Below are positions 6,601 to 56,782 of a stretch of DNA of 64,000 nucleotides, piece by piece; positions within the stretch are counted from its first letter, which is position 1, and each line of letters opens with the position of its first letter. Below the pieces are notes generated by a model. It did not search any database, was not told the DNA's origin, and was given only the letters and a program-made list of their open reading frames with translations. The stretch spans positions 15,456,427 through 15,520,426 of the forward strand of contig NC_023758.2 in NCBI RefSeq assembly GCF_000499845.2, in the 5' to 3' direction. A program made the translations under genes and the position numbers. The stretch comes from Phaseolus vulgaris (taxonomy: Eukaryota > Streptophyta > Magnoliopsida > Fabales > Fabaceae).

Positions 6601-7135
6601 ACTATGTAAGTAAGCAGCCATGTAACAATTTTATAGAAGGGGACACTCTTTTTCCCTCTCGGGGGTTTTTTAACGAGGTCACCCAAATAAAAGAAAGAGA
6701 AGTTCAAGAAAAGCTTTGCCTCAATTTTTATCTTCTTTCCACTCGAAGTGCAAGGCCAAGGGGTAAAAAGATAAAAGACAAAGATTCGAAATAGGCGACA
6801 GGCGTCGCCAAACATACGCGTCGCCAAGAGCAGGCGTCGCCAGGAAAGGGGTGTCGCCAGATGCAGGCATCGCCAAGAAACATAACGAAGGAAACGTGCA
6901 CAGTATGTTAAAAGAAGCGAATGTAGGCGAAGGTGTGCAAAAATGAAGCGGCGTTACAGAAAGAAAAAACATGACACCAGAGATTTAATATTACTAATAG
7001 AGTTCGAGATAAAGGTCAATGAGATAAATGAGGCGAACAGGTACATGCCCTATGCTCAAACAAAAAGTACAAACAGACCACTTTTCAGTGGCCTCCGGAG
7101 TCAAAAGCGGAAGTTTCTAAGGCAGTCACTCGTAC
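6601..7135 (+). other. A1 spacer after pol with conserved post-pol block
   Basis: No gene was seen. At 6639-6695 lies a block (GGGGACACTCTTTTTCCC, a G-rich run, TTTTTTAACGAGGTCACCC, then AATAAA) that follows the pol stop in A2 (32409-32464) and C (52568-52620) as well. It could help end or process the pol transcript. Several GGCGTCGCC-type motifs occur at 6790-6880. Confidence 0.7.
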
Positions 7136-12399: not shown

Positions 12400-12545
12400 A
12401 AGTCAACATAAGGCGTTGCCTAGGTAAGGCGGCGCCCAGTGCAAGCATCGCCAAGGCGGGGCGTCGCCAAGGTGAAGCGTCGCCAAGATGAGACGTCGCC
12501 TAGAGTAGGCGTCGCCTAGGTAGGGCGTCGCCCAGGTAAAATGTC
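12400..12545 (+). repeat. Degenerate GGCGTCGCC tandem tract in U3
   Basis: Short units of roughly 15-25 bp repeat the 9-mer GGCGTCGCC, which is an inverted repeat around one central base. The same tract occurs in the U3 of A2 and A3. Confidence 0.75.
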
Positions 12546-16690: not shown

Positions 16691-16692
16691 CA

Positions 16693-17710
16693 TGATGTGA
16701 TTCCACTAGCCATATAGAGAATGATTCTTGACATTCTTAGGAATCACCTTGAGCTGGACATTATTGAGGCACTTTTCTTAGAGTTGGATCATTGTTCTAA
16801 GACAAGAACTCACCAAAAACTAGTACCAAATCCCAAACTCATTTGGATGTTCCACATATTGTCAAATTGAACCAACAAAAAGAGGTAAAACTAAAAAGCA
16901 CCGAATAGAATTGAATAAGAACACATTTGAATCGAACAAAGTGAAATTAAAAAGGCAAGAACAACAAATAGGTGCTGGAAAAACAGAATAGCCGAACCAA
17001 ACAACAAGACAACAAGCTAGAACAAAGAATTAACAAAGAAGAAAGGAAGGAGAGAAGAATTGCTCATGAAGATGGAAGGATGATGGATGATCTCGCCACT
17101 AGAAGTGTGGAATGCTCCTAGATGAGAGTGCTACCGCCACTTGAGGACTCCATGGATCTATCAAGATAAGACTAGAGAAGAAGGCTCAAAAGCTCTCCAA
17201 TGCTCACTCAAAAATTGAGTATAGTTTCTTTACTCTCATTTCAATTTTGAAAAATACAAGGGCTGCACCTTAATTTATAGCCTAAGGTGCTGAAATGTAA
17301 GCTACACAAATTCAAAAAACTCCCTCCTAAAAGCTTCTAGAATTGGCGCCTAAAACAATGCATGAGGAAGGTGTGATCCCTTCTCTCACTTTGGCACCTC
17401 CTTATTTACTCCTACACCTATCTACTAACACACCCCCCCTAAAACTCCTAACTAAAGACTAAAAGATGCTTTAACAATAGAGGTTTCTAATGTTTCCCTC
17501 TAAGCACCTTCAACAATATTCTTTATTATTTAATACTTGGCCTTGCCCTTCATGAGATGAACTTGGGCTTTTTGGGCTTTGGCCTTCTTGGGCTTGGGCT
17601 TGGGCTTTGGGCCTCATCTTTTTGCAAAGAATAATAAGAAGAACTTTAAATGTGAGGGCGAATGATCTTGTCCTTCATTATTAAAAGCCTTCTTTATTTG
17701 ATTCGCATCA
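16693..17710 (-). repeat. B1 5' LTR
   Basis: 1018 bp on the minus strand, from TGATGCGAATC (17710) to GGAATCACATCA (16693). The first 194 bp (17710-17517) are specific to B1 and identical to the 3' remnant at 13268-13075. The remainder is CRM-type sequence like B2. Confidence 0.88.
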
Positions 17711-20411: not shown

Positions 20412-21446
20412 TGATGGAGATCAAGCTCAAGAGGACATGGAGGCCAATCAACAAGATCAAGAAGAGGTAGAGGCACAAATGGAGGACGCCCATGGAGGTC
20501 AAAGCCCACCTCAAAGGATTACAAGAAGCATGTTCAAAGCTTTAGGAGCTAGGGGACATTTATTTTCTATTTTTGTAATTTCTTTAGTTGAAGGTGCTTA
20601 GAGGGAAACATTAGAAACCTCTTTTGTTATAACATCTTTTACGCTTTAGTTAGGAGCTTTAGGAGGGGGGGGTTGTATTAGTAGATAGGCGTAGAAGTAG
20701 AATAGGAGGTGCCAAAGTGAAGGAAGAGGTCACACCTCCCTCATGCCTTGCAATTGGCGCCGGTTCTAGAATATGTTTAGGGGGGAAATTTGAATTTGTT
20801 TAGCTTGCATTTTCAGCACCTTAGGCTATAAATAGAGGTGCTCTCTTTGTAAATTTCAGATTGGAATTTTAAGAAAAGAAACTATACTCAAATTTTGAGT
20901 GATCATTGGAGAGCTTATGAGCCTTCTTCTCTAGTCTCATCTTGAAGGATCCATGGTGTCCTCAAGTGGCGGCAGCACACTCATCTAGGAGCAGCCATCC
21001 TTCTAGTGGCGTGATCATCCAACCATTCTTCCATCTTCATGAGCACTCTGTTTCTCCTTCCTTTCTTCTTTTGTTAATTCCTTGTCTTAGCTTGTTTCTT
21101 TGTTGATTTTGGTTCGGCAGTTTTCATTTTATTTGTGTTGCTTCGGTTCTTTTATGGAGCCTTGCTGTTCTTCATCTTTCTTCTTCATTTTCCAGCTTTT
21201 TGTTCGGTTCATTTTAATTTCCAGCATTCAAATTCAGTTTGCTTAGCTTTTGTGCCTTTTTGTTCGGTTCAATTTGAAAATAATTGGATCTTCTATATGA
21301 GTTTGTGTTTTGGCACTAGTTTTGGTGAGTTCTTGTTCATAGAACCTTGATCCATTTCTATGATAAAGTGCCTAGCTCTTAACCAACTCAAGATGATTCC
21401 TAAGAATGTCAAGAATCATTCTAATTGTGCTAGTGGAATCACATCA
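20412..21446 (+). repeat. B2 5' LTR
   Basis: 1035 bp. TATA box TATAAATA at 20827-20834. The first ~190 bp encode the acidic integrase tail ending in PQRITRSMFKAL; this copy of the tail is open, unlike the one in the 3' LTR. Confidence 0.93.
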
Positions 21447-21448
21447 TG

Positions 21449-25362: not shown

Positions 25363-26335
25363 TGTTCCGTCCGGTTGACCGGGACGTCTTCGTGCGCGAC
25401 CTCAACCGTCAGCTAGGGACACCTTCCCACTGGTTGCCTGTGGATTCCTGCAAAAAAGAGGACAAAGAGGCGCCCTAGCGGCCGTGTGCACTCCGACGCT
25501 CAAGTCAGCCAGCAAGAAACACCAAAAACTGTCCACCTACGTGTCTGAGCACCGCGTGTGGCACTCTGAAGGTGGTAAAATAACTGTGTATATGTGTGTG
25601 TTGTCTCCTTCAGGCAAAAATATTCCCCAGTCACTTGTACGCAACCTTGAAGCACGAGCAAGCAACTAGAGAGTTCTCTGGTAAATTTGCCGAAGGTTCC
25701 AACCCTTTTTCCAACATTCTCCGCGCTATTTAAACTACCCAAGCATTTAAAGCGCCTTAAAGCGCTTTTACTCACAAACGTAACGCACTCATTAAAGCGC
25801 TTAATTAGAAAACGTAGCGCATTTAAGACGTTTGAAACGCTCGGGAGCCATTATAGTACCTGAATGCTCGAAAGGGAAACTGTATTGAATAACTTTTAAT
25901 TACCTGGCACCTGACTAAAGGGTGTTTCTATTCTGGCATGGCTGTCGTACACGTGGAGGGCCTCCCGACGCCATGACCCCATCTGGGGGCGCTTCGGCCC
26001 ACCTGGGGACGTTTCTACGTGTGAGTCCTCCTGCTGGGAGTGCTACTGTGCTAGGGGTGACTTTTTGGGGTGCCAACTCATGCCCCCAAGTATCTAGTCA
26101 CTTACTTTGAGAGCGTATCTGCCTTCCTTTTGTACTCTGCACCCGGTTGCCCTGGGCGTGACTTTCCTCTTGAGTCGTATCTGCCCTACGGGCGTCTCTG
26201 GGGCGGCAGGAGCACGTCACGAGTCAGGCTGCCCTTCACTGGTACTGTTACTATGGCTTTGAAGCCACCTTTTCTTTCTCTTTACTGCTGCCCCGTGCTA
26301 TTGGGACCTGAGGCCTTCTCACGGCGTCGCTCCCT

Positions 26336-26357
26336 CCATGGTCTTTCCTACCCATGG
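26336..26357 (+). repeat. Hairpin motif in the A2 3' LTR
   Basis: CCATGG, loop TCTTTCCTAC, CCATGG, followed by GGTATCGGGGA. Identical copies lie in the other A2 LTR (38981-39002) and the A3 LTR (57776-57797). Confidence 0.85.
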
Positions 26358-26404
26358 GTATCGGGGAACCACACCGCGATTGCCTTACTTTAGCACTGTT
26401 TGAT

Positions 26405-26560
26405 CTGGCGACGCCCTAGCGAGGCGATGCCTCCATCTGGGCTACGCTTTGCCTTGGCGACGCCTTCCCCTGGCGACGCCTTGCCTTGGCGACGCCTGGC
26501 CTTGGCGACGCTTCCTCTTGGCATCTCTACACCTAGGCGACGCCTTGCGTTGACTTTTGA
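26405..26560 (+). repeat. GGCGACGCC tandem tract in A2 U3
   Basis: Degenerate repeats built on CCTTGGCGACGCC. Also at about 39049-39190 (other LTR), 57843-58010 (A3) and 12400-12545 (A1, reverse orientation). Confidence 0.75.
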
Positions 26561-26618
26561 CCTTCCAGTTGTTGACTTTGACCTTGACTTAGTCAGCGCC
26601 CGGATACGGGACGGTACA

Positions 26619-26636
26619 CAAGCCCCCCAGTCTTAA
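26619..26636 (-). other. A2 polypurine tract
   Basis: The minus strand reads CTTAAGACTGGGGGGCTTG (one base beyond this span) directly before the LTR start TGTACC. Confidence 0.8.
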
Positions 26637-27337
26637 GTCGAAGACTTGTCTTCAGCGCAAAGACTAAAGCCTCGCCCACGCCGTCCACGTGCCTTCCTGA
26701 TGACGTGTCATTCTCTGCTGACTCAGCAATTTTTTCGAATTACTGACGTGACAATTTCTGAACCAGAGGTATTCTTAATGGCTGATTGGACATCCCTGAA
26801 ATGGGAAAAATGATGTCTTTTGAAGTTGCGCTTAATCGCGTGCCACGTGGTTCATCGTGCGGTCGTCTTCAAGAACCCCTCGCGCTTCCCTTGAGCGCTT
26901 AATCTTGCAACACGTGGCGTCATCACACAGTTACCCTTTGCTGCCCCTCGCGCTTCTCGTAACGTTTAAGTTACCAAACCCCGCGCTTGCCACTACTGTT
27001 ACATTCACTTTCTCTGCCCTCAGTCACTGTTCATCTTCTCTAAATCCCTTCTCTTGCGACCCCTGTTCGTTCGCGTTTCCGCTCTCCACACCCTTCAGCC
27101 CCCAAAGGAACGGTTTTTCCCTCCTTGATGATTCTCTTTACTGTATGAACTGCCTGGGACTGTCCATATTACCGCATTTCTCTGGATATCGTTTGTATGC
27201 TTCTTTGTTCCTCTCGTTTCCCTTCGTTCTCTTGTGGGTAGGGCGCTCCTAGGGTTCTTCCATTTTTCCCTTTTCTTCTCCCAAACCCCTTTTCTCTGAA
27301 CCCTTTCTTTCTCTTTTGATCTTCAGCATTGGCATTG
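26637..27337 (+). promoter_or_regulatory. Region upstream of A2 aORF2 (no gene)
   Basis: No ORF was recognised. It lies between the polypurine tract and the aORF2 start codon, so it should hold the promoter and leader of that + strand gene. G-box-like CACGTG occurs near 26686 and 26842. I could not name a confident TATA box. Confidence 0.4.
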
Positions 27338-29645
27338 ATGGCGAAAACTAAAACCACCGCGCCTCCCCCGCTCCCCAAGTCTCATTATAAGGGCGAATAT
27401 GACTGGGCCCCCGACAAACTTCTGGACGAATGTTCCCTCCTGAACTCTGTTGAGGACGTGGAGGCTCATAGGGGGGACCCTGCTCTCTATAACTTCAATG
27501 CTTTCCACAAAAATCACGACTCCCAAGTCCTGGTAAGCCGGGTGCGACCTGGGATGCCCGTTTGTGCAGACTCACGGGATACTGGGGGATGCCCTTTCTT
27601 CTTCCTCTATCAGATGGTGCTCAAGAGGGTGGGCCTGCGTCTACCCCTCACTCCCTTCGAAAAAGAGCTACTGACAGAGATAAACACTGCTCCCGCCCAA
27701 CTCCATCCCAACAGTTGGGCTTTCGTGAGGGGGTTCCAAATTCTCTGCGGCTATCTAGGCGTTCCCTCCTCTGTGGACGTTTTTCTTCACTTCTTCGAGG
27801 TAAAGAAGCAAGGGAAAAGCCTTTGGATGAGCTTTTCTGGCATCGCCGGGCGCATCATCCTTACGCTCTTCCAGAATTCGTTCAAAGGATGGAAGGGGAA
27901 ATTCTTCAAGGTACGCGCGACCAAGCGCGATCCTACTATCCTAGAGGGCTTTCCCCTGTACTGGACAGACAAACCCATAACCATGAAGCCCTTGGCTCTG
28001 GACGAGCTCGCCCCGCCTGACCGGGATGTATGCAAAGCCTTGGCGGGACTGGAAATAGTCTTCGATACCGCCAAACTCATCGCGAATGAATTCAATGCCC
28101 ATGGGCTTTCTACCTACTTCGGTATCTGCTCTTGGTGATTTATGATGCATTAGTTGTTGTGGTTATCTGCATGTATTCGGCCATAGAATCTTCCTTCTGA
28201 TTCATCTGAATCAAACTTATGCTACCAATTTTCGCTGTACAATGTTACTTGCATTTCACGCCTCTTCATGTATTGTGAATTCGCATAACTGTTCTAGTGC
28301 TAACCCTTGTCGATTGGCCTGTCTTGATGTAGGATCGGTGATGGGCATTTCCAAAAGAATAATGTTGGCGAAAGCACTGAAGGAGGCTCGTGCCGCCAAG
28401 GCAGGCGTCTCCTCCAGCCCTGTTGCCAATCCGGTTCTCCCACCGGCTCCGTCACCGCCACCTCCAGTCATTGCTGAAGCTGCTTCTAGCCCATCTCCGA
28501 CGTCTCCACCTGGCTCCGACGTGCTTCCAACTCCCAATTCTCCTCCGCCTGTCGCCGCTATTCCCCTAGCTGCGGCCTCGTCACCGGCTCCAACCCCCCT
28601 TGACAAAGGGAAAAGGGTTTTGGAGATTCTGTCAGATGACGAGGATTCGGAAGGGGTGGCACCCTTCAGGAGGAGAAAATCCGCGCGGGTTCCTCTTCTG
28701 GTAGAGACGTCGCCGCAGGGAGGGAACCCCTTTATGGACAACCCTCCAAGCGCAACCTCACTCCCTCCTAGGATACTCCAAGAGGAAAGGGGCGAAGGCG
28801 CCGAATCTGCCCCGCCTCCGCCGCCGCCAAAAACCACTGCTTCCCCGGCTCCCGACGCTGCTGCCCCCGACTTCATCGCCATCCCTCCTCCAATCATGCA
28901 TCTGATGAGGGGTTTCAGTGGCGGGACTATGCCAGATGGTACCGACAGGAGGGAAGGCATGCCTTTCTACTTGGGGACCTTCTTGGCGGTGGCCCTTGAA
29001 TGGCGCTCCCAGGCCAGAAACGCGGTCCTGCAAGCTCATACCCTCTAAGCCTTGGAAACAAAAGCATCTACTCTGGAAGAGGAAATGAGGACCCTGGGAC
29101 GCCAGAACGAAGCCTATCAAACTTCTCTGAGACAAATACAAGAGTCCAAAGCGGAAACAGAGAGGCGACTGGCGGAGGCATTGGAGCTCCAGGCAGGCTT
29201 CTACACTCGGGAAGTTGCTCTTCAAGTGCAGGTAACGGGTCTTCAGGAAGTGGTCAAAGCGGATGCAGAAACTCAAAAGGACCTGAAGGACCGTTGCTGC
29301 GAACAGGCCGCCAAGGTAGAGCGGATGGGGGAGGAAATGGCCACCCAGGCCAAAGCTATGGACCTTCTCCGAGTTGACTACGACAAACTGCGGGTCGAGG
29401 TTAGCCGGCTTCGCGTGGAGAAAGAGGCTCTGGAGAAGCAGGTGACCTCTGGAGACGCCGCCATTGAGGAACTGGAGAAGGAGAAAAAGTCCCTTATCCA
29501 GGAGATGGCGGGTACCTTCGAGGAGGGGTTCCAAGAGGCCCTGACCCAGGCGTCCTGCGAGAATCCGGGCGTCAACCTTTCGAACTGCGACCCCACACAC
29601 CACGTCGTCGACGGGAAGGTCGTGCCCATGGATCTGGATGACTGA
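27338..29645 (+). CDS. A2 antisense gene aORF2: PF04195 domain, SIM/NLS-like linker, coiled coil (spliced)
   Basis: This gene is opposite to gag-pol. The start is the ATG at 27338 (MAKTKTT). Exon 1 (27338-28121) encodes the PF04195-type domain with LLTEINTAPAQLHPNSWAF and FLHFFEVKKQ. The intron 28122-28332 (GT-AG, 211 bp) rejoins the frame as YFGSVM, as in A1. Exon 2 encodes a Pro/Ser-rich linker, then RVLEILSDDEDSEG and the basic FRRRKSARVP (about 28615-28695), and LMRGFSGG. A TAA at 29046-29048 ends a 499-residue product. The same frame then stays open through a strong coiled coil to 29645 (ends MDLDD), and A1 has a TAA at the same place. The function is unknown; antisense ORFs of this kind are known from other Tat elements such as maize Grande. 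The linker suggests a nuclear, possibly SUMO-binding protein (inference). Confidence 0.8.
28122..28332 (+). other. Intron of A2 aORF2
   Basis: Donor GGTATCTG, acceptor GATGTAG. The A1 counterpart (10829-10644, minus) is 186 bp with unrelated interior length but the same exon junction. Element C has one at the equivalent place (58507-58319). Confidence 0.8.
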
Positions 29646-30117
29646 ACCGCTGCCTCTCATCCGCCGCCTTCCTCTTCAAGCTCAACTCTTTTATTCTTTA
29701 CCTTCGTTTCTTGATTTTATCTGTCAAAACTTGTAATTCTTTGAACTATCCGCACTCTTGTTACTGATTTGGGACGTTCGTATGGTTGCCTTTATTTCTT
29801 TGTCACATACGATTCTGTCTATGCGATCTCATTCTCATCTTTTCCCTTCACACGCTTCAATTATTTTATCTGTGTTCTGCCCATTCCTTTCACTTCGTTG
29901 GGCGGTTTGGTATGATCGGGAAAGGTTGCGCGCTAACCCTCACGCCCATGGAGAGGCTCACTTAGTGACGCCGTATCGTCCACGGGATGTCTCTGATACC
30001 GAAAGGCCCTTTCTTTGATCCTTAACGCCCGGCGCCCACGCCTAAGGAGAGGCCTGCTACAGCAGCACCGTATCGTCTCCGGGCGTCTAAAACGCTGAGC
30101 GCTCTGGAGAGGGTCTA
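29646..30117 (+). other. A2 spacer downstream of aORF2
   Basis: No gene was seen. It probably includes the 3' untranslated end of aORF2, T-rich just after the stop. Confidence 0.5.
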
Positions 30118-30655
30118 TTCCCTCCATGGTCTTTCCTTCCCATAGGTATCGGGGAACGCCCTGCCAGTGATTTGCTGGCGTTTGGCGGTCTCGTCTCCCT
30201 CCACAGTCTTTCCTACCTGTGGGTATCGGGGAGGCGACGCCTGTGACTAACTTTGCCTTCTTTGACTTCGTCTCCCTCCACAGTCTTTCCTACCCGTGGG
30301 TATCGGGGAAACAACGTCAGCAACTAACTCTGCTTCCTTCACTTTCGTCTCCCTCCACAGTCTTTCCTACCTGCGGGTATCGGGGAAACAAAGCCAACAA
30401 CTAACTCTGCTTCCTTCACTTTCGTCTCCCTCCACAGTCTTTCCTACCTGCGGGTATCGAGGAGGCGACGCCAGTTGGTATTTGGGTTGGCGACGCCCGT
30501 GACGTCTCTCGCTGGTGTCGCCCTTCACATCCTTCCGGGCGACGCCTCGGGCGTTACCTTTGCTTCGACATTGACTTTGATTCTTGCCTTGGTCGATGCC
30601 TGATGGCAGCGAAGAGCTCAAGGCTTTGTCGGTGCCATCCACGTGGCGCTCCTTG
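30118..30655 (-). repeat. Internal U3 relic of A2 with five-copy 77-bp array
   Basis: On the minus strand this reads CCACGTGGATGGC, GAGCTCTTCGCTGCC, a stretch of AATCAAAGTCAATGTC-like text, GGCGTCGCC motifs and then the hairpins. That is the order found around the real LTR start, but without polypurine tract or TGTACC end. Five hairpins start at 30124, 30201, 30278, 30355 and 30432, exactly 77 bp apart. The 30201 copy pairs perfectly; the others have one mismatch. Confidence 0.75.
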
Positions 30656-31093
30656 TACAGCTGATGGGACGTTCCGTCATTCGACTTGATCCACGTGGCG
30701 CTGCTTGTATTGATGGGGCATCTAGTCATTCCATTTTCTGACTAATGCTGTTCCCCTGACTCACTTTCGACGGTGCATCGTACCACTGGATATTCTGCTG
30801 ACACGACGCTTTCTGATTTAAACCAGTGGTGCCAGCGTCATCCTTTCATCTTCTGCCACGTGTATCAATCGTGCGGTGCATCCATTCACGTCGTTTGGCG
30901 CTCTAACCGCTTTATTTAACTCTTCAAACTCTGGAACTATCCTCATCATTTTCTCACTCTTCATAACCTACTTACGTTCTTTCTTCTTGTACCCTTCCTT
31001 CTTGCACCCTTTCTTCTCTGTCGAAGGGTTGTTCTAGCCTTCGCTCCCCTCACCCAACTCTTGCGTTTCTGGCAGTCCTGATCTTGTTAAAGA
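30656..31093 (+). promoter_or_regulatory. Region upstream of A2 aORF1 (no gene)
   Basis: Expected promoter and leader of aORF1. GATCCACGTGGCGCT near 30690 resembles a second copy near 30635 (both contain CACGTG). TTTATTTAA at about 30911 is the best TATA-like stretch, with no proof. Confidence 0.4.
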
Positions 31094-32056
31094 ATGTCAT
31101 CTCACGCTGCTTCCTCCAGAGTTCGTCCCAAAGACTTGTACCCTTGGGCTTCGAATGAACTTCTTGACGAGTGTTCATGCTTACTCTCTACCAGGGCCAT
31201 ACGGGAGCACAAAGGAGAGTCATGTTCCTATGACCACCGGGCCTTTGCGAGGAGGCATGACGACGACATCGCTGTGCTCCCTTGCACTCTAGGGGAGCCA
31301 GTATGTGGAGACGAACGGGCCAACGAAGGGGTCCCTTTCTTTTACTTTTACCAGGTGGTGTTCAAGACCATCGGAGTGCGCTTACCCTTTTCTTGGTTCG
31401 AGAAGGAACTGCTGACAGAGATCAACGTGGCTCCGGCCCAGTTGTATCCCAACAGCTGGGCCTTTGTCAAGGCCTTCGATGTCCTCTTCGGGTCTCTGGG
31501 TTGTGCACCCTCGGTTGACCTCTTTCTTCACTTTTTTGAGGTGAAGAGACAGAGACACAACCTCTGGGTAACTCTCAGTAATGTGCCCGGGAGGGTTCTC
31601 TTCACACCCTTCCAGAGCTCGTTCACCGGGTGGAAAGGCCGGTTCTTCAAGATCTGTCGTACTGACCTTGTCCCCGACGCTCTGGATGGGTTTCCGCTGT
31701 ACTGGGTGAGAGAGGAAAAGGTCCTCAAAGCCAAACCCCTCAAGAATCTAGCTCCAAGTGATCAAATAGCTTGCCGGATTCTTGCTGAGGCGGGAGGTTT
31801 TGACTCTGCCACGGTGATCAGCCTGGAGTCTAATGCTGGGACTCTTGAGAAGTACATATGTAAGAACCGCTGCCTTGGCAACTCCGGCCTTTGTTGCTTT
31901 TTGTACGTGCATGTCTTGCCTTGGTATCTCTAACACGTCTTTTTCCCTGGTGCAGGTTCGAAAATAAACCAAGAAAAGAGGGCACGACTTATTCGAGCTC
32001 TGCGGGCTGGAAAAGAGGCTTCGTCTTCCTCTAGCGATGACTCTGATGACCACTGA
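31094..32056 (+). CDS. A2 antisense gene aORF1: short PF04195-type protein (spliced)
   Basis: The start is the ATG at 31094 (MSSHAASS). Exon 1 (31094-31859, 766 nt, the same length as in A1) encodes the PF04195-type domain: FFYFYQVVFKTIGVRLPF, LLTEINVAPAQLYPNSWAF, FLHFFEVKRQ, FPLYWVREE. The intron 31860-31955 (96 bp) runs from GTAAGAAC to TGCAG. Exon 2 (31956-32056) adds a basic stretch NQEKRARLIRALRAGK and an acidic Ser/Asp tail ending SDDSDDH. The spliced frame is exactly 289 codons including the stop. It is a diverged paralogue of aORF2 that lacks the long linker and coiled coil. The function is unknown. It ends 437 bp from the convergent end of gag-pol. Confidence 0.78.
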
Positions 32057-32493
32057 GGAATGGCTTGTTAGCCTTTTTGTATGATTTGCAGCGTTTGCTT
32101 CGTTTGTACCACTCCCATTGTATTGAACATTGCTTGTAACAACAACTTTCAATATCATACTTGATTTTTTGCAACGCCACTTTACTTTGCATGTGCCTCA
32201 TATACCACGCGCTATCCTTTCGTCTCGTTCTGCCCACGATGCATGCCTTCACTTTGGGCGACGCCCTCTTTCGGGGCGACGCCACGACCTAGGCGACGCC
32301 TTCTTCCTTGGCGACACCATGGCCTAGGCGGCGCATCACATTACTTCTAACAAGGAAAGATAAAGGCTGAAAACCAAGGCACTTCTTTTTCTCAACTGGT
32401 TTTCCCGTTTATTAGGGTGACCTCATTAAAAAACCCCCGAAAGGGAAAAAGAGCGTCCCCTTCGACTAAATTGTTACATACTGCTTACATAAG
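32057..32493. other. Convergent spacer between aORF1 and pol, with post-pol block
   Basis: No gene. 32409-32464 is the reverse complement of the block found after pol in A1 and C, including AATAAA on the minus strand. GGCGACGCC motifs lie at 32260-32335. Confidence 0.7.
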
Positions 32494-35400
32494 TCAACTG
32501 AAATAAAATTTTAAGTTGGCTGCATTCCAACTGCGCGGGATAGGGCCTCCATCTAAAGTCTCCAGGTTGTACGAACCATTGCCCTTAGCCTCAGTAACTC
32601 TGAAGGGCCCGGTCCACTTGGGAGACAGCTTATTCTCCAACTCGTATGGGTGGGCTTTCCTCATCACCAGGTCGCCCACCTGAAACTGTCGCGGCTTTAC
32701 CTTAGAGCTATATTGCCGCTCTACTCTTCTCTTCATCGCTTCAGCTTTTATTCTAGCTTCTTCCCTGGCCTCTTCTAGCAGATCTAGGTTCACCCGCCTC
32801 TCTTCATTAGATTCCTCCACCACAAAGTTTTGAAAACGCGGTGAGCTTTCGTGTATTTCTACTGGAATCATCGCGTCTGACCCGTATACCAAACTGAAAG
32901 GCGTCTCCATAGTAGAGGATTGGGGCGTGGTGTGATATGCCCATATAATCCTTGGCACCTCTTCTGCCCACGCCCCTTTGGCATTCTCTAACCTTCTTTT
33001 TAACCCCCTCAGAAGGACTCTGTTTGCTGACTCTACTTGTCCATTGGTCTGGGGGTGTTCAACCGATGCGAACACTTGTTTGATTCCCACTTCAGCGCAC
33101 AGATTTCTCAGCTGCTGACTGGCAAACTGGGTCCCGTTGTCAGATATCAGGCGCCTGGGTACGCCAAAGCGACACACGATGTTTCTCCACACAAAATGCT
33201 GTACCTTATGCGCAGTGATTTGTGCCACAGGCTCCGCCTCTATCCACTTAGTGAAGTATTCTATGGCGACGATCAGATACTTCATCTGCCTGATAGCCAG
33301 TGGGAAAGGGCCCAGGATGTCAATTCCCCATGTGTGGATAGGCCACGGGCTGTATATAGACCTGAACTCCTCTGGCGGCGCCTTGTGCCAGTCGGCGTGC
33401 TTTTGGCATTGCCTACACCGCTGGGCGTGCCGTGCGCAGTCCTCTTTCACTGTTGGCCAGAAAAAACCTGCGCGTATTACCTTGGAGGCTAAGGATCTTC
33501 CCCCTACATGGCTTCCGCAGATGCCTTCGTGTAGCTCCGCCATTATCCTGGTGCACTCATCGCCACTGACGCATGTTAGGATAGGGTGAGTAAAGCCGTG
33601 CCTGAACAGCACCCCATCCACCAAAGTATATCTGGCGGCATTTCTTTTGACTTTTTTGCCCTCTTCAGGGTCCACTGGAAGAGCCCCATCCGCCAGGTAC
33701 CGTTTATAGGGCGTCATCCAGGTGTCTCCCTTGGACAAAACACAGACCTGCCTCTGCTCTTCCTCAGGCCCACCTGCGTATATGCTGATGCGGGGCGCCT
33801 TCTGCGTATCTTGAGTTAAAGAGGAATGGCTCCTCGGCCTTCCCCTTGATGTATAAATCTGGAGGACATCCACCCTGTTGTCTTCCACGAATCGACGCGG
33901 AGCTTTGAGAGTCTCCTGGATCACTGTCCTCTGTCTACCCCCCTTGCCTGAGCTGGCCAGCTTTGCAAGTAGGTCAGCTCTGGCATTCTGCTCCCTCGGG
34001 ACATGTATCAGCTCAAAAGCGTTGAACGCCCCCTTCAATAACTGGACGTATCTAAGATACGCCGCCATCTGTGGGTCCTTCGCCTGGAATTCACCCGACA
34101 CCTGCCCCGTAATCAACTGAGAGTCGCTCTTCACCAGGAGGTGCTGTGCGCCCATCTCCTTCGCCAAGAGCATTCCTGCTATCAGGGCTTCATACTCTGC
34201 CTGATTGTTACTTGCCTTGAAGGCAAAAAGCAAGGCCTGCTCGATGAGTATGCCGTCGGGTCCCTCCAACACTATTCCCGCACCGCTCCCTTGTTGGTTT
34301 GAAAAGCCATCAACCGAGAGTAGCCACTGCGAACTAGGTTCCACCTCTTGCTCACCTCCGGGCGAAAGTTCTGCTACAAAATCCGCGTACACCTGCCCTT
34401 TGATGGATCCTCTAGGCTCGTACTGGATGTCGAATTCTGACAGCTCCACTGCCCAGCGTACCATTCTTCCTGCCACATCGGGTTTCTGCAGCACTTTCTG
34501 TATGGGGAGATTGGTCATCACTACCACCGTAAAACTGTGGAAGTAATGACGGAGCCTCCTAGCAGAAAACACTACTGCCAGCGCCGCCTTTTCTAGTGCT
34601 TGGTGCCTCGTCTCAGCCCCCTGTAAGGCCTTGCTCACGAAGTAGATGGGCTTCTGACTCTGGTCCTGCTCTTGGACCAACACAGAACTAATGGCCCGCT
34701 CCGTTACAGTAAAATACAAACGGAGGGGCACGCCCGTCACCGGCTTGCAGAGGACCGGTGGCGTCGCCAGGTACTCCTTCAGCTTAATGAAAGCCGCTTC
34801 GCACTCATCAGTCCAGGCAAAGCGACTGTTTCTCTTAAGGCACTGGAAGTACGGGTGCCCCTTTTCTCCTCCGGCGGAAACAAACCTCGAGAGCGCCGCC
34901 ATCCGCCCTGTCAACTGTTGCACCTCCTTTACCGATGTCGGACTCCGCATGGCGATAATGGCCGCACATTTGTCGGGGTTCGCCTCTATCCCCCTCTCGG
35001 TGAGCAAAAAACCCAAGAACTTACCGGCCTCCACCCCGAAAACACACTTTTCGGGGTTCAACTTGAGGCGGTATTTGGATATTGTGTTGAACAACTCCTC
35101 GAGGTATGCCATGTGCTGCACCCTACTCTGCGACGCCACCACCATGTCGTCGACGTAAGCGTACACATTCCTCCCAAGCATTGGCGCCAGGACCTTATCC
35201 ATTAGCCTCTGGTACGTGGCGCCCGCATTTTTCAGCCCGAAGGGCATCACCTTATAACAGTAACTGCATGTCTCCGTCATGAATGCAGTTTTGCTCTCGT
35301 CTCTTTGGTGCATCTTAATTTGGTTGTACCCTGAGAAGGCGTCCAGGAAACTTAACACCTTGCTATCGGACGCGCTGTCTACCAAGGCGTCGATGCTGGG

Positions 35401-37929
35401 CAACGGATAGGAATCCTTTGGGCACGCCTTGTTCAGGTCCGTGAAGTCAACGCACATTCTCCACTTTTCGTTCGCCTTTTTCACCAAGACGACATTGGCG
35501 AGCCACTCAGGGTACTGAATCTCCCTAATGTGGCCAGCACTCAGCAGCTTCTGCGTTTCGTCTTTCACCACCTGTTGTCGTTCCTCATTGAACTTCCTCC
35601 TTCTCTGACGCACGGGGCGGACCGTGGCGTCCATGCTGAGGTGGTGACACAGGAAATCAGGGTCGATGCCTGGCATATCCGAGGTGGACCATGCGAAGGC
35701 ATCCAGGTGGCGCGAAATCACTTCTAGCACCCCTTCCTGTTCTTCTGGGCTTAGCGAACTTCCTAACTTGAAAGCTTTGCCACCAATCTCCCTTTCTATG
35801 GCGTTAGCTGCAGGCTGCTCCCTGCTATCATCTTCGACGGACGCCGCCTCTTCGACAGGCGCCGCCTCTTCTACGGGCGCCGCGTCGTCAGGGCCTTCCT
35901 CCATTGGCACATCTGCTTCGGGCCTCGCCCTCTCTGCTATGGCCGCTTCAGGCGTCAGCCCAGCGGGCGTCGCCTCAACCATCGTCGTGTCCGCTCTTGG
36001 CGGACGTTCATACACCATAAATACGCCTCTCTTCGTCTTCAGGCTGTTTTCATAGCATTTCCTCGCCTCCTCCTGGTCTGACCTGATGACTATCACCCGG
36101 CCACTGAGGTCCGGTAGCTTCATCTTCATGTGACGGGTGGAGGACACTGCACTCAGACGGTTTAACGCCGGTCTGCCCAGCAAAATATTGTAGGCAGAAT
36201 TAGCGTTCACGACGAGGTACCGGATGCTCTCTGTACGGGAGGCCTCTCCGTCTGTGAACGTAGTCCTCAACTCCAGGTACCCCCGGACTTCTACCTGGTT
36301 ATCCCCGAACCCATACAAACATCCCGTATAGGGACTCAGCAGATCGGGGGACAACCGTAACTTATTAAAGGTCGACAGAAACATGACGTCTGCCGAGCTT
36401 CCTTGATCAACAAGCACTCTGTGGACCTTCCTTCCAGCTGTGACGACTGAGATGACAACGGGATCGTTGTCGTGGGGCACCACATCTCGGAGGTCTCTTC
36501 TTGTGAACACAATATCTGACTCCCAGGGCTCCCCCGAGAGCCTCTCCTCGATTGAATTCACCCCCCTCGCGTATTTCTTCCGCTGGGAGGCGGTGGGTCC
36601 TCCGCCAGAAAAACCTCCAGCAATGGTGTGGACCTCGCCAAGCACAGGCATCTCGTGTGCTGGCTCATCTGCCGGCGGCGGCAAGGTGGCGGTCGTTGTG
36701 GAATCTGCGACATAATCTTTCAAAAACCCAGTCCTCACCAGCTCATCTAGCTGGTAGCCCAACGACAGGCAATTATCAATTTGGTGCCCGAAAGCCTCGT
36801 GAAATTCGCACCAAGAGTCTTTACGGGGCCCTAACACCTTGTCGGTCTTCGCCGGTCGCCTCAGCCTCTCGGCTATGTTGGGTACGGCGATCAAATCCTT
36901 CAACTCAACTACGAAGTTGTACCTCGCCGGTCTTGCTCTTTCTCTGGCGGGGCGTTCGCCTCCTGCTGGGCCCCGGGGCTGGGGCTTTCTGGCCTCGTAG
37001 GGGCGTCTTGCCTCTGGCTTCTTTCTCCCTATCGTGGTCTCATTGACTCTGACGGGTTGAACTCGCGCCGGTCCCCTCGGGCGTGAGGGCACGGCGCTGG
37101 TGCGCTTCACACATACCTCCCCTTCTGAAGCAATATGCTCTACTGCCCTGCGCCGTAATTCAGCGAAAGTCCTAGGGCGATTACGGATAATGGATTCTCC
37201 GAAGGGGCCGGGGCATACGCCTTTCACAAATGCGTACACGATCATAGGCTCTTCTATTGTGCCAACCTTCACGACCTGGGCCCCGAAGCGATTGATATAC
37301 TCCTTCAGGGTCTGCCCCTGATATTGCTTCACGTCGAACAGGTCGTAGGAGACCGGCGGCGGGGCCTTGTTGGCTAAGTACTGTTCTCGGAATAACCGCG
37401 ACAATTGGCGGAAGGATGTGATATGACCTTCTGGGAGGCTAATGAACCACTCCATAGCCATCCCGGTCAGGGTGCTCATGAAGAGCTTGCACTTGGCAGC
37501 ATCAGAACCGCCTATCAGGACCATCTGCGTATGAAATGCAGCCAGGTGCGTCTCTGGGTTCTCCATCCCGGTGAAGATCACCTTGGGTCCCGCGAACGTG
37601 TTCGGGATCGCTGCGTCAAGGATCTCCTGTGAGAAAGGAGTGGAAAACTCCCTTGGTGGGGAATGGTTCTCCGTCTCGTCCTGTCCAGGTCGCCTCCGAT
37701 CGTTTCTCAGGCCTTGGCGCAACTCTTCATTCACACGGTGGAGCTCTTCGTTCCGCTCGTGCGAGGCATCGAGGTCTGCCTGCATGCGTTCTTGCTCCAG
37801 TTTCGAATCCGCCATGTCCTGCTGCAGCCCCCTCATTATCTCCAGGACCTGTTGCATGGATAGGTCTGTTGGGGCTGCGCGCGCCGCTCTTCGTCTGGTG
37901 GGGGCCATTGTCGCTCCCAACTCCTTCAA
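32494..37929 (-). CDS. gag-pol: A2 gag-pol polyprotein, uninterrupted
   Basis: 1811 codons without a stop. It may really start at the internal ATG at 37908 (MAPTRRR), which aligns with the A1 start. Approximate residues: N-terminal coiled coil 20-75; gag core 100-230 (MEWFISLPEGHITSF); zinc knuckle CEFHEAFGHQIDNC near 371, a C-H-H-C form; protease VDQGSSADVMF near 508, with DQG where DTG or DSG is usual. RT spans about 760-1000, with CVDFTDLNKACPKD and YVDD near 926. The first RNase H is near 1095-1180. A second, archaeal-type RNase H is near 1204-1320 (SVDG, QAEYEAL, KSDSQL, ARADLLAK). Integrase follows, with an HHCC region 1468-1510 and DDE residues in GIDILG (1537), SDNGTQ (1598) and QVESAN (1631). 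A GPF module is near 1773. There is no chromodomain. The dual RNase H marks the Tat lineage. Confidence 0.96.
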   Translation of the reverse strand: MKELGATMAPTRRRAARAAPTDLSMQQVLEIMRGLQQDMADSKLEQERMQADLDASHERNEELHRVNEELRQGLRNDRRRPGQDETENHSPPREFSTPFSQEILDAAIPNTFAGPKVIFTGMENPETHLAAFHTQMVLIGGSDAAKCKLFMSTLTGMAMEWFISLPEGHITSFRQLSRLFREQYLANKAPPPVSYDLFDVKQYQGQTLKEYINRFGAQVVKVGTIEEPMIVYAFVKGVCPGPFGESIIRNRPRTFAELRRRAVEHIASEGEVCVKRTSAVPSRPRGPARVQPVRVNETTIGRKKPEARRPYEARKPQPRGPAGGERPARERARPARYNFVVELKDLIAVPNIAERLRRPAKTDKVLGPRKDSWCEFHEAFGHQIDNCLSLGYQLDELVRTGFLKDYVADSTTTATLPPPADEPAHEMPVLGEVHTIAGGFSGGGPTASQRKKYARGVNSIEERLSGEPWESDIVFTRRDLRDVVPHDNDPVVISVVTAGRKVHRVLVDQGSSADVMFLSTFNKLRLSPDLLSPYTGCLYGFGDNQVEVRGYLELRTTFTDGEASRTESIRYLVVNANSAYNILLGRPALNRLSAVSSTRHMKMKLPDLSGRVIVIRSDQEEARKCYENSLKTKRGVFMVYERPPRADTTMVEATPAGLTPEAAIAERARPEADVPMEEGPDDAAPVEEAAPVEEAASVEDDSREQPAANAIEREIGGKAFKLGSSLSPEEQEGVLEVISRHLDAFAWSTSDMPGIDPDFLCHHLSMDATVRPVRQRRRKFNEERQQVVKDETQKLLSAGHIREIQYPEWLANVVLVKKANEKWRMCVDFTDLNKACPKDSYPLPSIDALVDSASDSKVLSFLDAFSGYNQIKMHQRDESKTAFMTETCSYCYKVMPFGLKNAGATYQRLMDKVLAPMLGRNVYAYVDDMVVASQSRVQHMAYLEELFNTISKYRLKLNPEKCVFGVEAGKFLGFLLTERGIEANPDKCAAIIAMRSPTSVKEVQQLTGRMAALSRFVSAGGEKGHPYFQCLKRNSRFAWTDECEAAFIKLKEYLATPPVLCKPVTGVPLRLYFTVTERAISSVLVQEQDQSQKPIYFVSKALQGAETRHQALEKAALAVVFSARRLRHYFHSFTVVVMTNLPIQKVLQKPDVAGRMVRWAVELSEFDIQYEPRGSIKGQVYADFVAELSPGGEQEVEPSSQWLLSVDGFSNQQGSGAGIVLEGPDGILIEQALLFAFKASNNQAEYEALIAGMLLAKEMGAQHLLVKSDSQLITGQVSGEFQAKDPQMAAYLRYVQLLKGAFNAFELIHVPREQNARADLLAKLASSGKGGRQRTVIQETLKAPRRFVEDNRVDVLQIYTSRGRPRSHSSLTQDTQKAPRISIYAGGPEEEQRQVCVLSKGDTWMTPYKRYLADGALPVDPEEGKKVKRNAARYTLVDGVLFRHGFTHPILTCVSGDECTRIMAELHEGICGSHVGGRSLASKVIRAGFFWPTVKEDCARHAQRCRQCQKHADWHKAPPEEFRSIYSPWPIHTWGIDILGPFPLAIRQMKYLIVAIEYFTKWIEAEPVAQITAHKVQHFVWRNIVCRFGVPRRLISDNGTQFASQQLRNLCAEVGIKQVFASVEHPQTNGQVESANRVLLRGLKRRLENAKGAWAEEVPRIIWAYHTTPQSSTMETPFSLVYGSDAMIPVEIHESSPRFQNFVVEESNEERRVNLDLLEEAREEARIKAEAMKRRVERQYSSKVKPRQFQVGDLVMRKAHPYELENKLSPKWTGPFRVTEAKGNGSYNLETLDGGPIPRSWNAANLKFYFS

Positions 37930-37986
37930 CGTTACTGTAACATGATAAACCTTCTCGAACTTGTGATGGGACTGATGTTTTATATC

Positions 37987-38005
37987 GGCCCCACGGTGAG
38001 CGCCA
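37987..38005 (-). other. A2 primer-binding site (tRNA-Lys type)
   Basis: The minus strand reads TGGCGCTCACCGTGGGGCC, two bases after the 5' LTR end. One base differs from the complement of tRNA-Lys(CUU) in the first 18. Confidence 0.8.
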
Positions 38006-38007
38006 AA

Positions 38008-39263
38008 TGTTCCGTCCGGTTGACCGGGACGTCTTCGTGCGCGACCTCAACCGTCAGCTAGGGACACCTTCCCACTGGTTGCCTGTGGATTCCTGCAAAA
38101 AAGAGGACAAAGAGGCGCCCTAGCGGCCGTGTGCACTCCGACGCTCAAGTCAACCAGCAAGAAACACCAAAAACTGTCCACCTACGTGTCTGAGCACCGC
38201 GTGTGGCACTCCGAAGGTGGTAAAATAACTGTGTATATGTGTGTGTTGTCTCCTTCAGGCAAAAATATTCCCCAGTCACTTGTACGCAACCTTGAAGCAC
38301 GAGCAAGCAACTAGAGAGTTCTCTGGTAAATTTGCCGAAGGTTCCAACCCTTTTTCCAACATTCTCCGCGCTATTTAAACTACCCAAGCATTTAAAGCGC
38401 CTTAAAGCGCTTTTACTCACAAACGTAACGCACTCATTAAAGCGCTTAATTAGAAAACGTAGCGCATTTAAGACGTTTGAAACGCTCGGGAGCCATTATA
38501 GTACCTGAATGCTCGAAAGGGAAACTGTATTGAATAACTTTTAATTACCTGGCACCTGACTAAAGGGTGTTTCTATTCTGGCATGGCTGTCGTACACGTG
38601 GAGGGCCTCACGACGCCATGACCCCATCTGGGGGCGCTTCGGCCCACCTGGGGCCGTTTCTACGTGTGAGTCCTCCTGCTGGGAGTGCTACTGCGCTAGG
38701 GGTGACTTTTTGGGGTGCCAACTCATGCCCCCAAGTATCTAGTCACTTACTTTGAGAGCGTATCTGCCTTCCTTTTGTACTCTGCACCCGGTTGCCCTGG
38801 GCGTGACTTTCCTCTTGAGTCGTATCTGCCCTACGGGCGTCTCTGGGGCGGCAGGAGCACGTCACGAGTCAGGCTGCCCTTCACTGGTACTGTTACTATG
38901 GCTTTGAAGCCACCTTTTCTTTCTCTTTACTTCTGCCCCGTGCTATTGGGACCTGAGGCCTTCTCACGGCGTCGCTCCCTCCATGGTCTTTCCTACCCAT
39001 GGGTATCGGGGAACCACACCGTGATTGCCTTACTTTAGCACTGTTTGATCTGGCGACGCCCTAGCGAGGCGATGCCTCCATCTGGGCTACGCTTTGCCTT
39101 GGCGACGCCTTCGCCTGGCGACGCCTTGCTTTGGCGACGCCTGGCCTTGGCGACGCTTCCTCTTGGCATCTCTACACCTAGGCGACGCCTTGCGTTGACT
39201 TTTGACCTTCCAGTCGTTGACTTTGACCTTGACTTAGTCAGCGCCCGGATACGGGACGGTACA
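38008..39263 (-). repeat. A2 5' LTR
   Basis: 1256 bp, the same length as the 3' LTR, with about 10 substitutions and no indels that I saw. Hairpin at 38981-39002; R/U5 block near 38092-38152. Confidence 0.96.
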
Positions 39264-39268: not shown

Positions 39269-41052
39269 ATTGCCGCACCACTCAATGACATAGTGAAAAA
39301 GGATGTGGTCTTTCATTGGGGAGAAGCACAACAAAATGCTTTTGACACTTTGAAAGAAAAATTGACTAATGCTCCCATCTTGGCCCTTCCTAATTTCACT
39401 AAGACATTTGAGATTGAGTGTGATGCTTCAAGCATAGGTATTGGGGTTGTTCTCCTTCAAGAGGGCCACCCCATAGCCTATTTTAGTGAGAAATTGAAGG
39501 GAAGTCATCTCAATTATTCCACCTATGATAAGGAATTATATGCACTTGTTAGGGCTTTGTTTACTTGGCAACACTATCTTTTTCCCAAAGAGTTTGTGAT
39601 ACATAGTGATCATGAATCTCTTAAATATTTGAAAAGCCAAAACAAACTTAACAAGAGGCATGCCAAGTGGGTGGAATTCATTGAGCAATTTCCTTATGTG
39701 ATCAAACACAAGCAAGGCAAAGTAAATATTGTGGCGGATGCTCTTTCTAGAAGATATACTTTGCTAAATCTTTTAAGCTCTCAATATCTTGGTTTTGATA
39801 TCATGTCTTAAGGGAGGACACAAAGACTTTTTTATACAAGATGGCATTCTTTTTAAAGGAAAACGTCTTTGTGTTCCTCAATGCTCTATTAGATTATCTC
39901 TTGTTAGAGAAGCTCAGGAGGGGGGTTTAATGGGACATGTTGGGGTTGCTAAAACTTTGGATGTATTGCATGAACATTTCTTTTGGCCTCATATGCATAA
40001 ACATGTTCATAGTTTGTGTGATAAATGCATAGCTTGCCGCAAATCTAAGTCTAAGATGCATCCCCATGGTCTATATACTCCTCTTCCTATTCCTTCAATG
40101 CCTTGGGTAGATATATCTATGGATTTCATCTTAGGCTTACCCAAGACATCAAAGGGAAAGGACTCCATTTTAGTGGTAGTGGATCGTTTTTCAAAGATGG
40201 CTCACTTTATTCCTTGCCACAAAGTGGATGATGCATGCCACATTGCAAACCTCTTCTTCCAATAAGTGGTTCGCCTACATGGGATTCCTAGGTCTATAGT
40301 GTCCGACAGAGATCCCAAGTTCTTGAGTCACTTTTGGAAGACCTTGTGGGGCAAGCTTGGGACTAAGCTTTTATTTTCTACCACTTTGCCACCCACAAAC
40401 TGATGGTCAAACCGAGGTGGTGAATAGAACTTTGGGACAACTATTGAGATGTTTTATTTCGGGGAATCCTAGAGTGTGGGAGAATTTACTACCCCATGTT
40501 GAGTTTGCATATAATCGTGTAGTAAATTCTACCACCTCACATTCTCCTTTTGAGGTGGTCTATGGGTTTAATCCCCTAACACCTCTTGATCTTCTTCCTA
40601 TTCCCCTTCTTGGAGATGTCTTGTGCAAAGATGGGGATGAAAAGGCTTCTTTTGTGAAAACTTTGCATAAAGACATCAAGAAGAGAATTGAGAAGAAGGT
40701 TGGCAAGTATGCTGAACTTGCCAATAAGAGGAGAAAAGCATTGTTGTTTGATGAGGGTGATTGGGTTTGGCTTCACTTGAGAAAGGATCGCTTTCCTACT
40801 CAAAGGAAGTCCAAACTAATGCCTCGAGGGGATGGACCTTTCCAAGTCCTCAAGAGGATTAATGACAATGCTTATGAGTTAGATATGGCTGATACATTCT
40901 TAGGTAGTCATACTTTTAATGTCAGCGATCTAACTCCTTTTTCTGTAGGTCTCCAGAATTCGTGGTCGAATTCTCTCCAACTCGAGGAGTATGATGGAGA
41001 TCAAGCTCAAGAGGACATGAAGGCCAATCAACAAGATCAAGAAGAGGTATAG
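39269..41052 (+). pseudogene. pol: B2 second half of pol: RNase H and integrase, several lesions
   Basis: Continues the RT frame after A2. RNase H shows [40 protein letters not shown] and VADALSRR (about 39410-39755). Near 39803 bases present in B4 are missing and the frame changes. The integrase zinc region [13 protein letters not shown] is near 40020, core [16 protein letters not shown] near 40110, [12 protein letters not shown] near 40300 and [13 protein letters not shown] near 40410. Lesions: TAA at 40263-40265 where B4 has GAA, one extra T near 40386, and TAG at 41050-41052 in the LTR-encoded tail where the 5' LTR has GAG. The protein end overlaps the 3' LTR from 40992, as in CRM elements. 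Confidence 0.92.
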
Positions 41053-42024
41053 GCACAAATGGAGGACGCCCATGGAGGTCAAAGCCCACCTCAAAGGATT
41101 ACAAGAAGCATGTTCAAAGCTTTAGGAGCTAGGGGACATTTATTTTCTCTTTTGTAATTTCTTTAGTTGAAGGTGCTTAGAGGGAAACATTAGAAACCTC
41201 TTTTGTTATAACATCTTTTAGGCTTTAGTTAGGAGCTTTAGGAGGGGGGGGTGTATTAGTAGATAGGTGTAGAAGTAGAATAGGAGGTGCCAAAGTGAAG
41301 GAAGAGGTCACACCTCCCTCATGCCTTGCAATTGGCGCCGGTTCTAGAATATGTTTAGGGGGGAAATTTGAATTCGTTTAGCTTGCATTTTCAGCACCTT
41401 AGGCTATAAATAGATGTGCTCTCTTTGTAAATTTCAGATTGGAATTTTAAGAAAAGAAACTATACTCAAATTTTGAGTGATCATTGGAGAGCTTTTCAGC
41501 CTTCTTCTCTAGTCTCATCTTGAAGGATCCATGGTGTCCTCAAGTGGCGGCAGCACACTCATCTAGGAGCAACCATCCTTCTAGTGGCGTGATCATCCAA
41601 CCATTCTTCCATCTACATGAGCACTCTCTTCTCCTTCCTTTCTTCTTTTGTTAATTCCTTGTCTTAGCTTGTTTCTTTGTTGATTTTGGTTCGACAGTTT
41701 TCATTTTATTTCTTGTTGCTTCGGTTCTTTTATGGAGCCTTGCTGTTCTTCATCTTTCTTCTTCATTTTCCAGCTTTTTGTTCGGTTCATTTTAATTTCC
41801 AGCATTCAAATTCAGTTTGCTTAGCTTTTGTGCCTTTTTGTTCGGTTCAATTTGACAATAATTGGATCTTCTATATGAGTTTGTGTTTTGGCACTAGTTT
41901 TGGTGAGTTCTTGTTCATAGAACCTTGATCCATTTCTATGATAAAGTGCCTAGCTCTTAACCAACTCAAGATGATTCCTAAGAATGTCAAGAATCATTCT
42001 AATTGTGCTAGTGGAATCACATCA
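40992..42024 (+). repeat. B2 3' LTR
   Basis: 1033 bp, TGATGG to CACATCA. The integrase frame enters it and stops early at 41050 because of a GAG to TAG change relative to the 5' LTR. Confidence 0.93.
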
Positions 42025-56730: not shown

Positions 56731-56782
56731 CTGTAACTTGGTAGATTTTCTCGAACTTGTGATGGGACTGATGTTTTATATC

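Follow-up and report, generated by a model that had tools for sequence, protein, structure and literature searches.

In a 64,000-nucleotide stretch of the Phaseolus vulgaris genome (contig NC_023758.2, positions 15,456,427 to 15,520,426 of the forward strand; the window in what follows), the retrotransposons A2 and A1 each carry two paralogous genes antisense to gag-pol: a long one, termed aORF2, that encodes a Transposase_28 domain (PF04195), a linker and a coiled coil, and a short one, aORF1, that encodes the domain followed by a short charged tail (ORF, open reading frame). Codon-level comparison of A1 with A2 shows purifying selection on both proteins. A nine-base word, GGCGACGCC, recurs with the same orientation in some of the non-coding DNA of both elements and is a possible target of the pair.

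Structure of elements A2 and A1

The following features were located in A2 (LTR, long terminal repeat).

25363-39263, minus strand: whole element A2, delimited by LTR identity, TG..CA ends and a 5-bp target duplication
25363-26618, minus strand: 3' LTR, 1256 bp, 99.2% identical to 38008-39263
38008-39263, minus strand: 5' LTR, 1256 bp
32494-38046, minus strand: gag-pol ORF from stop to stop, a single open frame, Pfam run on three pieces
27338-29645, plus strand: aORF2, the long gene, antisense to gag-pol, with its ATG at 27338
27338-28121, plus strand: aORF2 exon 1, Transposase_28 domain (PF04195 E 6.2e-12 and codon pattern)
28122-28332, plus strand: aORF2 predicted intron, 211 nt, GT..AG, phase 1
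28333-29645, plus strand: aORF2 exon 2, with, in this order, basic start, Pro/Ser-rich linker, IAIPPPIMHLMRGF block, coiled coil and C-terminus
30119-30472, between aORF2 and aORF1: tandem array of 4.6 copies of a 77-bp unit, from tandem-repeat output
31094-32056, plus strand: aORF1, the short gene, antisense to gag-pol, its stop codon ending at 32056
31094-31859, plus strand: aORF1 exon 1, Transposase_28 domain (PF04195 E 5.9e-10 and codon pattern)
31860-31955, plus strand: aORF1 predicted intron, 96 nt, GT..AG, phase 1
31956-32056, plus strand: aORF1 exon 2, short basic, Ser/Asp-rich tail, with similar tails in relatives

The LTRs of A2 end in TG..CA, and the flanks read as the target duplication GTACC. 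With a Kimura two-parameter distance (K2P) of 0.008 between its LTRs, equivalent to 0.3-0.6 million years at two assumed rates, A2 is young. Pfam matches on the three pieces of its gag-pol frame follow the order gag, reverse transcriptase (RT; RVT_1), RT_RNaseH, an additional RNase H-like domain (RVT_3) and integrase (rve), and the succession of RT, RNase H, additional RNase H and integrase is the arrangement of Ogre and Retand (PMC6317226; here and below, statements on publications cited by PMC number refer to the parts of them that were available). By domain order, antisense Transposase_28 genes and tandem repeats, A2 and A1 are Retand-type Ty3/gypsy retrotransposons of the Tat clade. The region of A2 between pol and the 3' LTR (26619-32493, about 5.9 kb) holds two plus-strand PF04195 genes and the 77-bp array; sequence akin to this array is also seen in A1, at about 8508-8730.

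The two genes of A2 have the same orientation, lie 1.45 kb apart on the strand opposite to 32494-38046, match PF04195 with bit scores of 46 and 39.7 (gathering score 26.2) and share the motifs LLTEIN..APAQL.PNSWAFV and FLHFFEVK. This agrees with an initial annotation of the same DNA, which had described two genes of one family antisense to gag-pol, united by the blocks LLTEI..APAQL.PNSWAF and FLHFFEVK, with an aORF1 of about 288 residues that lacks the long linker and the coiled coil. After splicing, A2 aORF1 is intact, has 288 amino acids and ends 32 residues past the exon junction, and linker and coiled-coil queries (tblastn) matched in the two aORF2 genes only. By eye, its tail, SKINQEKRARLIRALR, is similar to the beginning of aORF2 exon 2 and of the long relative P0038. 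Within aORF2 exon 2, the IAIPPPIMHLMRGF block and the C-terminus are conserved, and the coiled coil is matched by many coiled-coil families of Pfam, all below cut-off. The annotation further gave aORF2 about 500 residues or more including the coiled coil and regarded both paralogues as kept open in A2. The coiled coil is indeed encoded and aORF1 is open, but an in-frame stop at 29046-29048 ends A2 aORF2 after 499 codons, ahead of the coiled coil.

Presence of the pair in a second copy, also stated by the annotation, holds for A1, but its genes are not complete.

9340-11610, minus strand: A1 aORF2, with intron 10644-10829 and two internal stops in exon 2
7136-7901, minus strand: A1 aORF1 exon 1, open

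After exon 1 of A1 aORF1 a GT is present at the expected place; exon 2 was not found, and the exon-2 query (tblastn, window) matched A2 only. We considered, and rejected, a conserved end of the aORF2 gene as the meaning of stops that occupy the same aligned place in A1 and A2: among 89 exon-2 relatives, 65 continue across the site of the A2 stop and match on either side of it, 16 do not cover it and eight match more weakly, so that the stops are taken as damage. Stops in both copies of aORF2 and the lack of exon 2 in A1 aORF1 could also mark the two genes as relics in decay that no longer function. The young age of A2, its intact aORF1 and the 65 relatives without the stop speak against this explanation, which we consider very unlikely.

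Selection on the two proteins

Codon-position and dN/dS comparisons were made between A1 and A2, and the resulting figures concern the lineages behind these elements, not the copies after insertion. ORF length was discarded as coding evidence: the longest plus-strand stop-free run comprises 300 codons, compared with a mean of 169 and a maximum of 336 in 300 shuffles, so that codon-level conservation constitutes the real evidence. Mismatches by codon position amounted to 30/16/122 in aORF1 exon 1 (255 codons), 66/41/145 in aORF2 exon 1 (260 codons) and 104/60/198 in aORF2 exon 2 (433 codons), a third-position bias (Fisher p 1.2e-32, 2.4e-22 and 2.7e-23) that in each gene resembles that of four gag-pol stretches. 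The dN/dS ratio was 0.04 (95% 0.02-0.07) for aORF1 exon 1 and 0.17 (95% 0.11-0.23) for aORF2 exon 2, with 0.07, 0.07 and 0.01 for three gag-pol stretches; aORF2 exon 1 yields no point value, its synonymous sites being saturated. As dS is 0.8-2.2 where finite, and thus near saturation, these ratios are rough, and the counts by codon position are safer to rely on.

For both first exons, the annotated frame gave the best identity of all six (0.85 and 0.70) and had no stops; the runner-up was a reverse frame (0.77 and 0.58) with stops. Upstream stretches of A1 and A2 are 49% and 54% identical, the stretch after aORF2 62.5%. Identity of the Transposase_28 domain between the elements is higher for aORF1 (85%) than for aORF2 (70%; Fisher p 0.00013). 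Selection on two diverged paralogues, as suggested by the initial annotation, is thereby borne out by the third-position bias of each gene and by low dN/dS where it could be computed. Antisense RNA regulation has been discussed for such elements (PMC7264820), and the antisense transcript could matter as RNA, be it as double-stranded RNA or as small RNAs against the element, the frames being incidental. The codon-position pattern in both genes, the frame controls and the conserved protein relatives argue for selection on protein, and an effect of the RNA alone appears highly improbable.

Element B and the third copy A3

Two further elements of the window bear on the sections that follow.

54124-58017: A3, a partial third copy, 93-94% identical to A2, in which a single LTR (56804-58017) and some of gag-pol are present
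51262-54123 and 58503-59570: element B, whose plus strand has a gag-like ORF and whose minus strand has one Transposase_28 gene

A3 apparently is inserted within B, another Retand-like element. A single Transposase_28 match was found in B (tblastn, parts present); the coiled-coil end of this gene seems to be located beyond A3, and the gag-like ORF has an end that, judged by eye, is similar to that of pol. An 888-codon open frame (53802-56468, minus strand), in which A3 pol is fused in frame to the apparent coiled-coil end of the accessory gene of B, probably arose by chance. A repeat of about 0.8-1 kb occurs in at least five copies and in both orientations (3490-4486, 16692-17514, 20412-21447, 40991-42024 and 48196-49158), one of them inside A1 gag-pol. 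A sigma-70/terminator scan was disregarded as having no bearing on a plant element.

Predicted introns

The proposal of the initial annotation that each gene has an intron near the same place holds in part. A common place after the domain and a common phase 1 were found for A2 aORF1, A2 aORF2 and A1 aORF2 (186 nt), but A1 aORF1 is left without a recognizable second exon; the gene of element B has, by our own reading of the sequence, the same intron place and phase. On the basis of GT..AG borders, phase and divergence, both genes are predicted to be spliced at one ancestral phase-1 intron, which is probably older than the split between aORF1 and aORF2 because A1 aORF2 and the gene of B have the same site. 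The introns of A2 and A1 aORF2 are 51.6% identical, with gaps, with mismatches by position of 33/24/32 and no third-position excess. The A2 aORF1 intron contains a stop and is 51% identical, with gaps, to the aligned A1 stretch (mismatches 12/10/17). Two observations speak against an intron in aORF1, i.e., its length of 96 nt, a multiple of three, and the open state of this region in seven of the 120 relatives listed (of 245), two of which, P0015 and P0048, overlap and represent a single sequence. An antisense gene would be able to retain its intron when the element retrotransposes, since reverse transcription would copy RNA of the opposite strand.

Relatives and origin of the pair

Homology searches returned 245 proteins for aORF1 (120 listed), 89 for aORF2 exon 2 and, with the domain profile, 806 (120 listed). 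Each of the 85 sequences in alignment A4 matches PF04195 at E 0.1 or better, and the 24 of the 89 exon-2 relatives that bear a source name all stem from Phaseolus vulgaris. Exon-2 matches P0122, P0129, P0146, P0181, P0190 and P0201 from this species carry host-protein names, among them formin-like 18, PERK13, SH3 domain-containing, INO80-like and tropomyosin-2-like, and are probably retroelement genes mistaken for host genes. In the bean gene model P0182, an aORF1-type start is fused to an aORF2-type exon 2 and the interior is missing; it may be a recombinant of the two paralogues or a model error. Relatives with DNA context were found neither among viral contigs (searched with two proteins and one alignment) nor among genome contigs (searched with the alignment), and tblastn of aORF1 against plasmids gave no relatives; the pair as such was checkable in A1, A2 and B only.

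A tree was derived from 157 listed proteins and five window sequences. After removal of 50 sequences with fewer than 205 aligned residues and thinning at 88% identity, from which window rows, P0038 and P0154 were exempt, 78 rows remained; the long branch of B served as root. The aORF1 clade (11 rows) and the aORF2 clade (21 rows) each have a support of 100/100, and 16 rows are located between them, on the aORF1 side (side support 84/92). The start MARTK occurs in eight of these 16 intermediate rows vs. none of the nine database rows of the aORF1 clade, and P0038, itself one of the 16, has the long linker.

Because of these intermediate rows, their MARTK starts and the long linker of P0038, the split between aORF1 and aORF2 looks older than the A-element family, and aORF1 seems to derive by shortening from a second, older lineage. 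The initial annotation had instead derived the pair from a duplication inside one element, with truncation of one copy. The common orientation, the narrow spacing, the same intron phase and the occurrence of both genes in A1 as well as in A2 favor this origin, and gene losses in other families could give the same tree pattern; the rows that separate the two clades, half of them starting with MARTK, and the linker kept by P0038 stand against it. Internal duplication is therefore not borne out by the tree and appears possible but doubtful, while a separate older lineage, joined via recombination between elements, fits the data at least as well.

An oriented word in non-coding parts of the A elements

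The near-palindromic word GGCGACGCC first became apparent in the LTR and elsewhere from tandem-repeat output. As GGCGNCGCC, it is present in 42 copies in the window, with 0.36 expected. Copies are grouped as follows.

26407-26544, plus strand: five GGCGACGCC in U3 (the upstream part of the LTR) of the A2 3' LTR, partly in 16-bp repeats
39052-39189, plus strand: the same five GGCGACGCC in the A2 5' LTR
30233-30546, plus strand: four GGCGACGCC in the A2 aORF2-aORF1 spacer, overlapping the 77-bp array
32257-32300, plus strand: three GGCGACGCC in the A2 aORF1-pol spacer
12428-12532, minus strand: cluster in A1 U3, three GGCGACGCC and one GGCGCCGCC on the aORF strand
8419-8607, minus strand: five GGCGACGCC in the A1 aORF2-aORF1 spacer
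6801-6841, minus strand: two GGCGACGCC in the A1 aORF1-pol spacer

The copies in the A2 5' LTR repeat those of the 3' LTR and are not independent of them; the A3 LTR contains four copies of GGCGNCGCC. With regard to orientation, the center base is A on the aORF strand in 31 of the 32 copies in the LTRs and two spacers of A1, A2 and A3 vs. none of the ten copies in their gag-pol genes. We compared six compartments, i.e., the LTR and the two aORF1-adjacent spacers of A1 and of A2, which were chosen after the word had been seen. The only 9-mers common to all six were GGCGACGCC and the overlapping GCGACGCCT, and none of 200 shuffles gave any; no 9-mer was common to the LTR plus the accessory genes in the same comparison. 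Copies of the word are found neither in the four accessory genes of A1 and A2 nor outside the A elements, where four stretches with a total of 29,650 bases were covered. The U3 copies of A1, A2 and A3 are located 64-203 bp from the LTR start at shifting positions, as expected for repeats that turn over. A literature search for GGCGACGCC together with retrotransposon returned no paper, which only means that these strings do not co-occur in the literature covered.

Possible action of the pair on the word

The protein VANC21 binds a nine-base motif whose copies share one orientation and occupy non-coding DNA of its own element, introns included, and tandem-repeat turnover shapes its targets (PMC5735166). 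The A elements resemble this VANC/VANDAL system in that the element which encodes the protein also contains, in its non-coding DNA, copies of a short word with a common orientation. In addition, a coiled-coil protein would be a natural reader of a near-palindrome. From the VANC21-like layout and from this match of coiled coil and near-palindrome we tentatively propose that the Transposase_28 proteins act on the GGCGACGCC sites of their own element in a VANC-like manner and keep it expressible. Both proteins would act on their element in the nucleus, where the long form would dimerize by means of its predicted coiled coil and, either alone or together with the short form, recognize GGCGACGCC in U3 and in both aORF1-adjacent spacers. 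The bound protein would function as activator or anti-silencer and in this way preserve expression of its element, and the short form, which has no coiled coil, would serve as co-factor or limiter of the long form. The full version of this proposal, a two-protein antisense self-regulation or anti-silencing system in which a dimerizing long protein and its short partner read a word multiplied in the LTR enhancer region and the short-gene spacers, must be regarded as unlikely. A predictor labelled Transposase_28 as DNA-binding (PMC11963269), and the antisense protein of Grande is nuclear (PMC7264820).

A host enhancer factor constitutes the strongest rival. According to this explanation, GGCGACGCC is a host transcription-factor site that belongs to the LTR enhancer and the proteins serve another step, e.g., as chaperones of the integration complex, in its nuclear import or in the choice of insertion sites, and we consider this a genuine if less than probable possibility. 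Enhancer repeats are common in U3, the U3 copies of A1, A2 and A3 have the place expected for an enhancer, and neither the introns nor the spacer ahead of aORF2 contain the word. Proposals made for ORFs of this kind include nuclear import and a role like that of accessory proteins in retroviruses (PMC7264820). The presence of the same oriented word in the aORF1-pol spacer of both elements is left unexplained by a host factor.

Several observations weigh against an action of the Transposase_28 proteins on the word. Gag-pol contains four copies of GGCGNCGCC in A2 and three in A1 (shuffle means 0.13 and 0.06), never in the oriented form; the LTR-aORF2 spacer of either element and the three introns have none, and the 9-mer is equally missing from element B, which has one Transposase_28 gene, in the parts present. 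Parts of the word-bearing blocks align between A1 and A2 at 77-87%, and the U3 repeats could be host-factor sites or could have spread by slippage. The link between word and protein is drawn from two elements plus one A3 LTR in one window, and aORF2 is broken in both A1 and A2. VANC/VANDAL elements differ from the A elements in belonging to the DNA transposon class, and VANC motifs occur also in introns, unlike the word of the A elements. Fold searches with a model of A1 aORF2 exon 1 (predicted local distance difference test, pLDDT, 70.8; predicted template modelling score, pTM, 0.70) gave no match to a solved structure, those with the aORF1 model (pLDDT 58.9) gave no useful match, and a profile search of PDB sequences had no match. 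As far as these models go, the lack of a fold match leaves DNA binding neither supported nor excluded. Pfam scans of the accessory proteins gave PF04195 and otherwise weak matches only, VANC itself not being part of the comparison.

Comparison with known systems

Antisense Transposase_28 ORFs as such have been reported before (PMC11963269; PMC7264820; PMC6317226). In the survey of PMC11963269, antisense Transposase_28 (TRP28) ORFs are described for 97% of the Retand clusters, their role being unknown, and 57 TRP28 ORFs longer than 600 bp are given for 63 clusters. By our count, Table 1 of that survey lists 56 of the 63 clusters with a plain YES, five with YES in a short ORF and two with NO. 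We infer that these counts allow about one cluster with two TRP28 ORFs; two such ORFs per element are thus rare or unrecorded there, and the words intron, coiled, splicing and Phaseolus are absent from the main text. In common with the genes of A2, the Retand TRP28 ORFs are located antisense between pol and the 3' LTR and match PF04195, with tandem repeats in about half of the cases.

ORF2 of 15 Ty3/gypsy families from common bean, e.g., pvRetro13 and pvRetro26, has the same orientation and place as the genes described here, in some cases with an SMC match, and is probably of the same kind (PMC4093653). Set beside A2 by description only, these families have one extra ORF each, and a second paralogue is not mentioned in the parts of that source available. 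Silene Retand elements with ORF3 and ORF4 (PMC3290532; PMC11728184) resemble A2 in having two extra ORFs per element, and ORF4 is said to carry pfam04195 (PMC7264820). Gene23 of Grande, likened to the present genes by description only, is likewise antisense between pol and the 3' LTR, encodes a nuclear protein and has its own promoter (PMC7264820), but it is one gene as opposed to a pair.

In the literature covered, which comprised mostly papers accessible without subscription, neither a conserved pair of short and long genes that share an intron nor the repeated word was found. The conserved paralogue pair appears as a new form of the known antisense Transposase_28 genes. In common bean, Retand is the major Ty3/gypsy lineage, and the I gene of this species contains a recent insertion of a non-autonomous Retand copy (PMC13392006). 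With a conserved pair and a candidate DNA target, an accessory ORF of unknown role becomes directly testable by binding. If the proposed action on GGCGACGCC is true, the A elements would provide a retrotransposon counterpart of VANC and a function for PF04195, and DNA transposons and LTR retrotransposons would have separately reached the same kind of self-protecting system.

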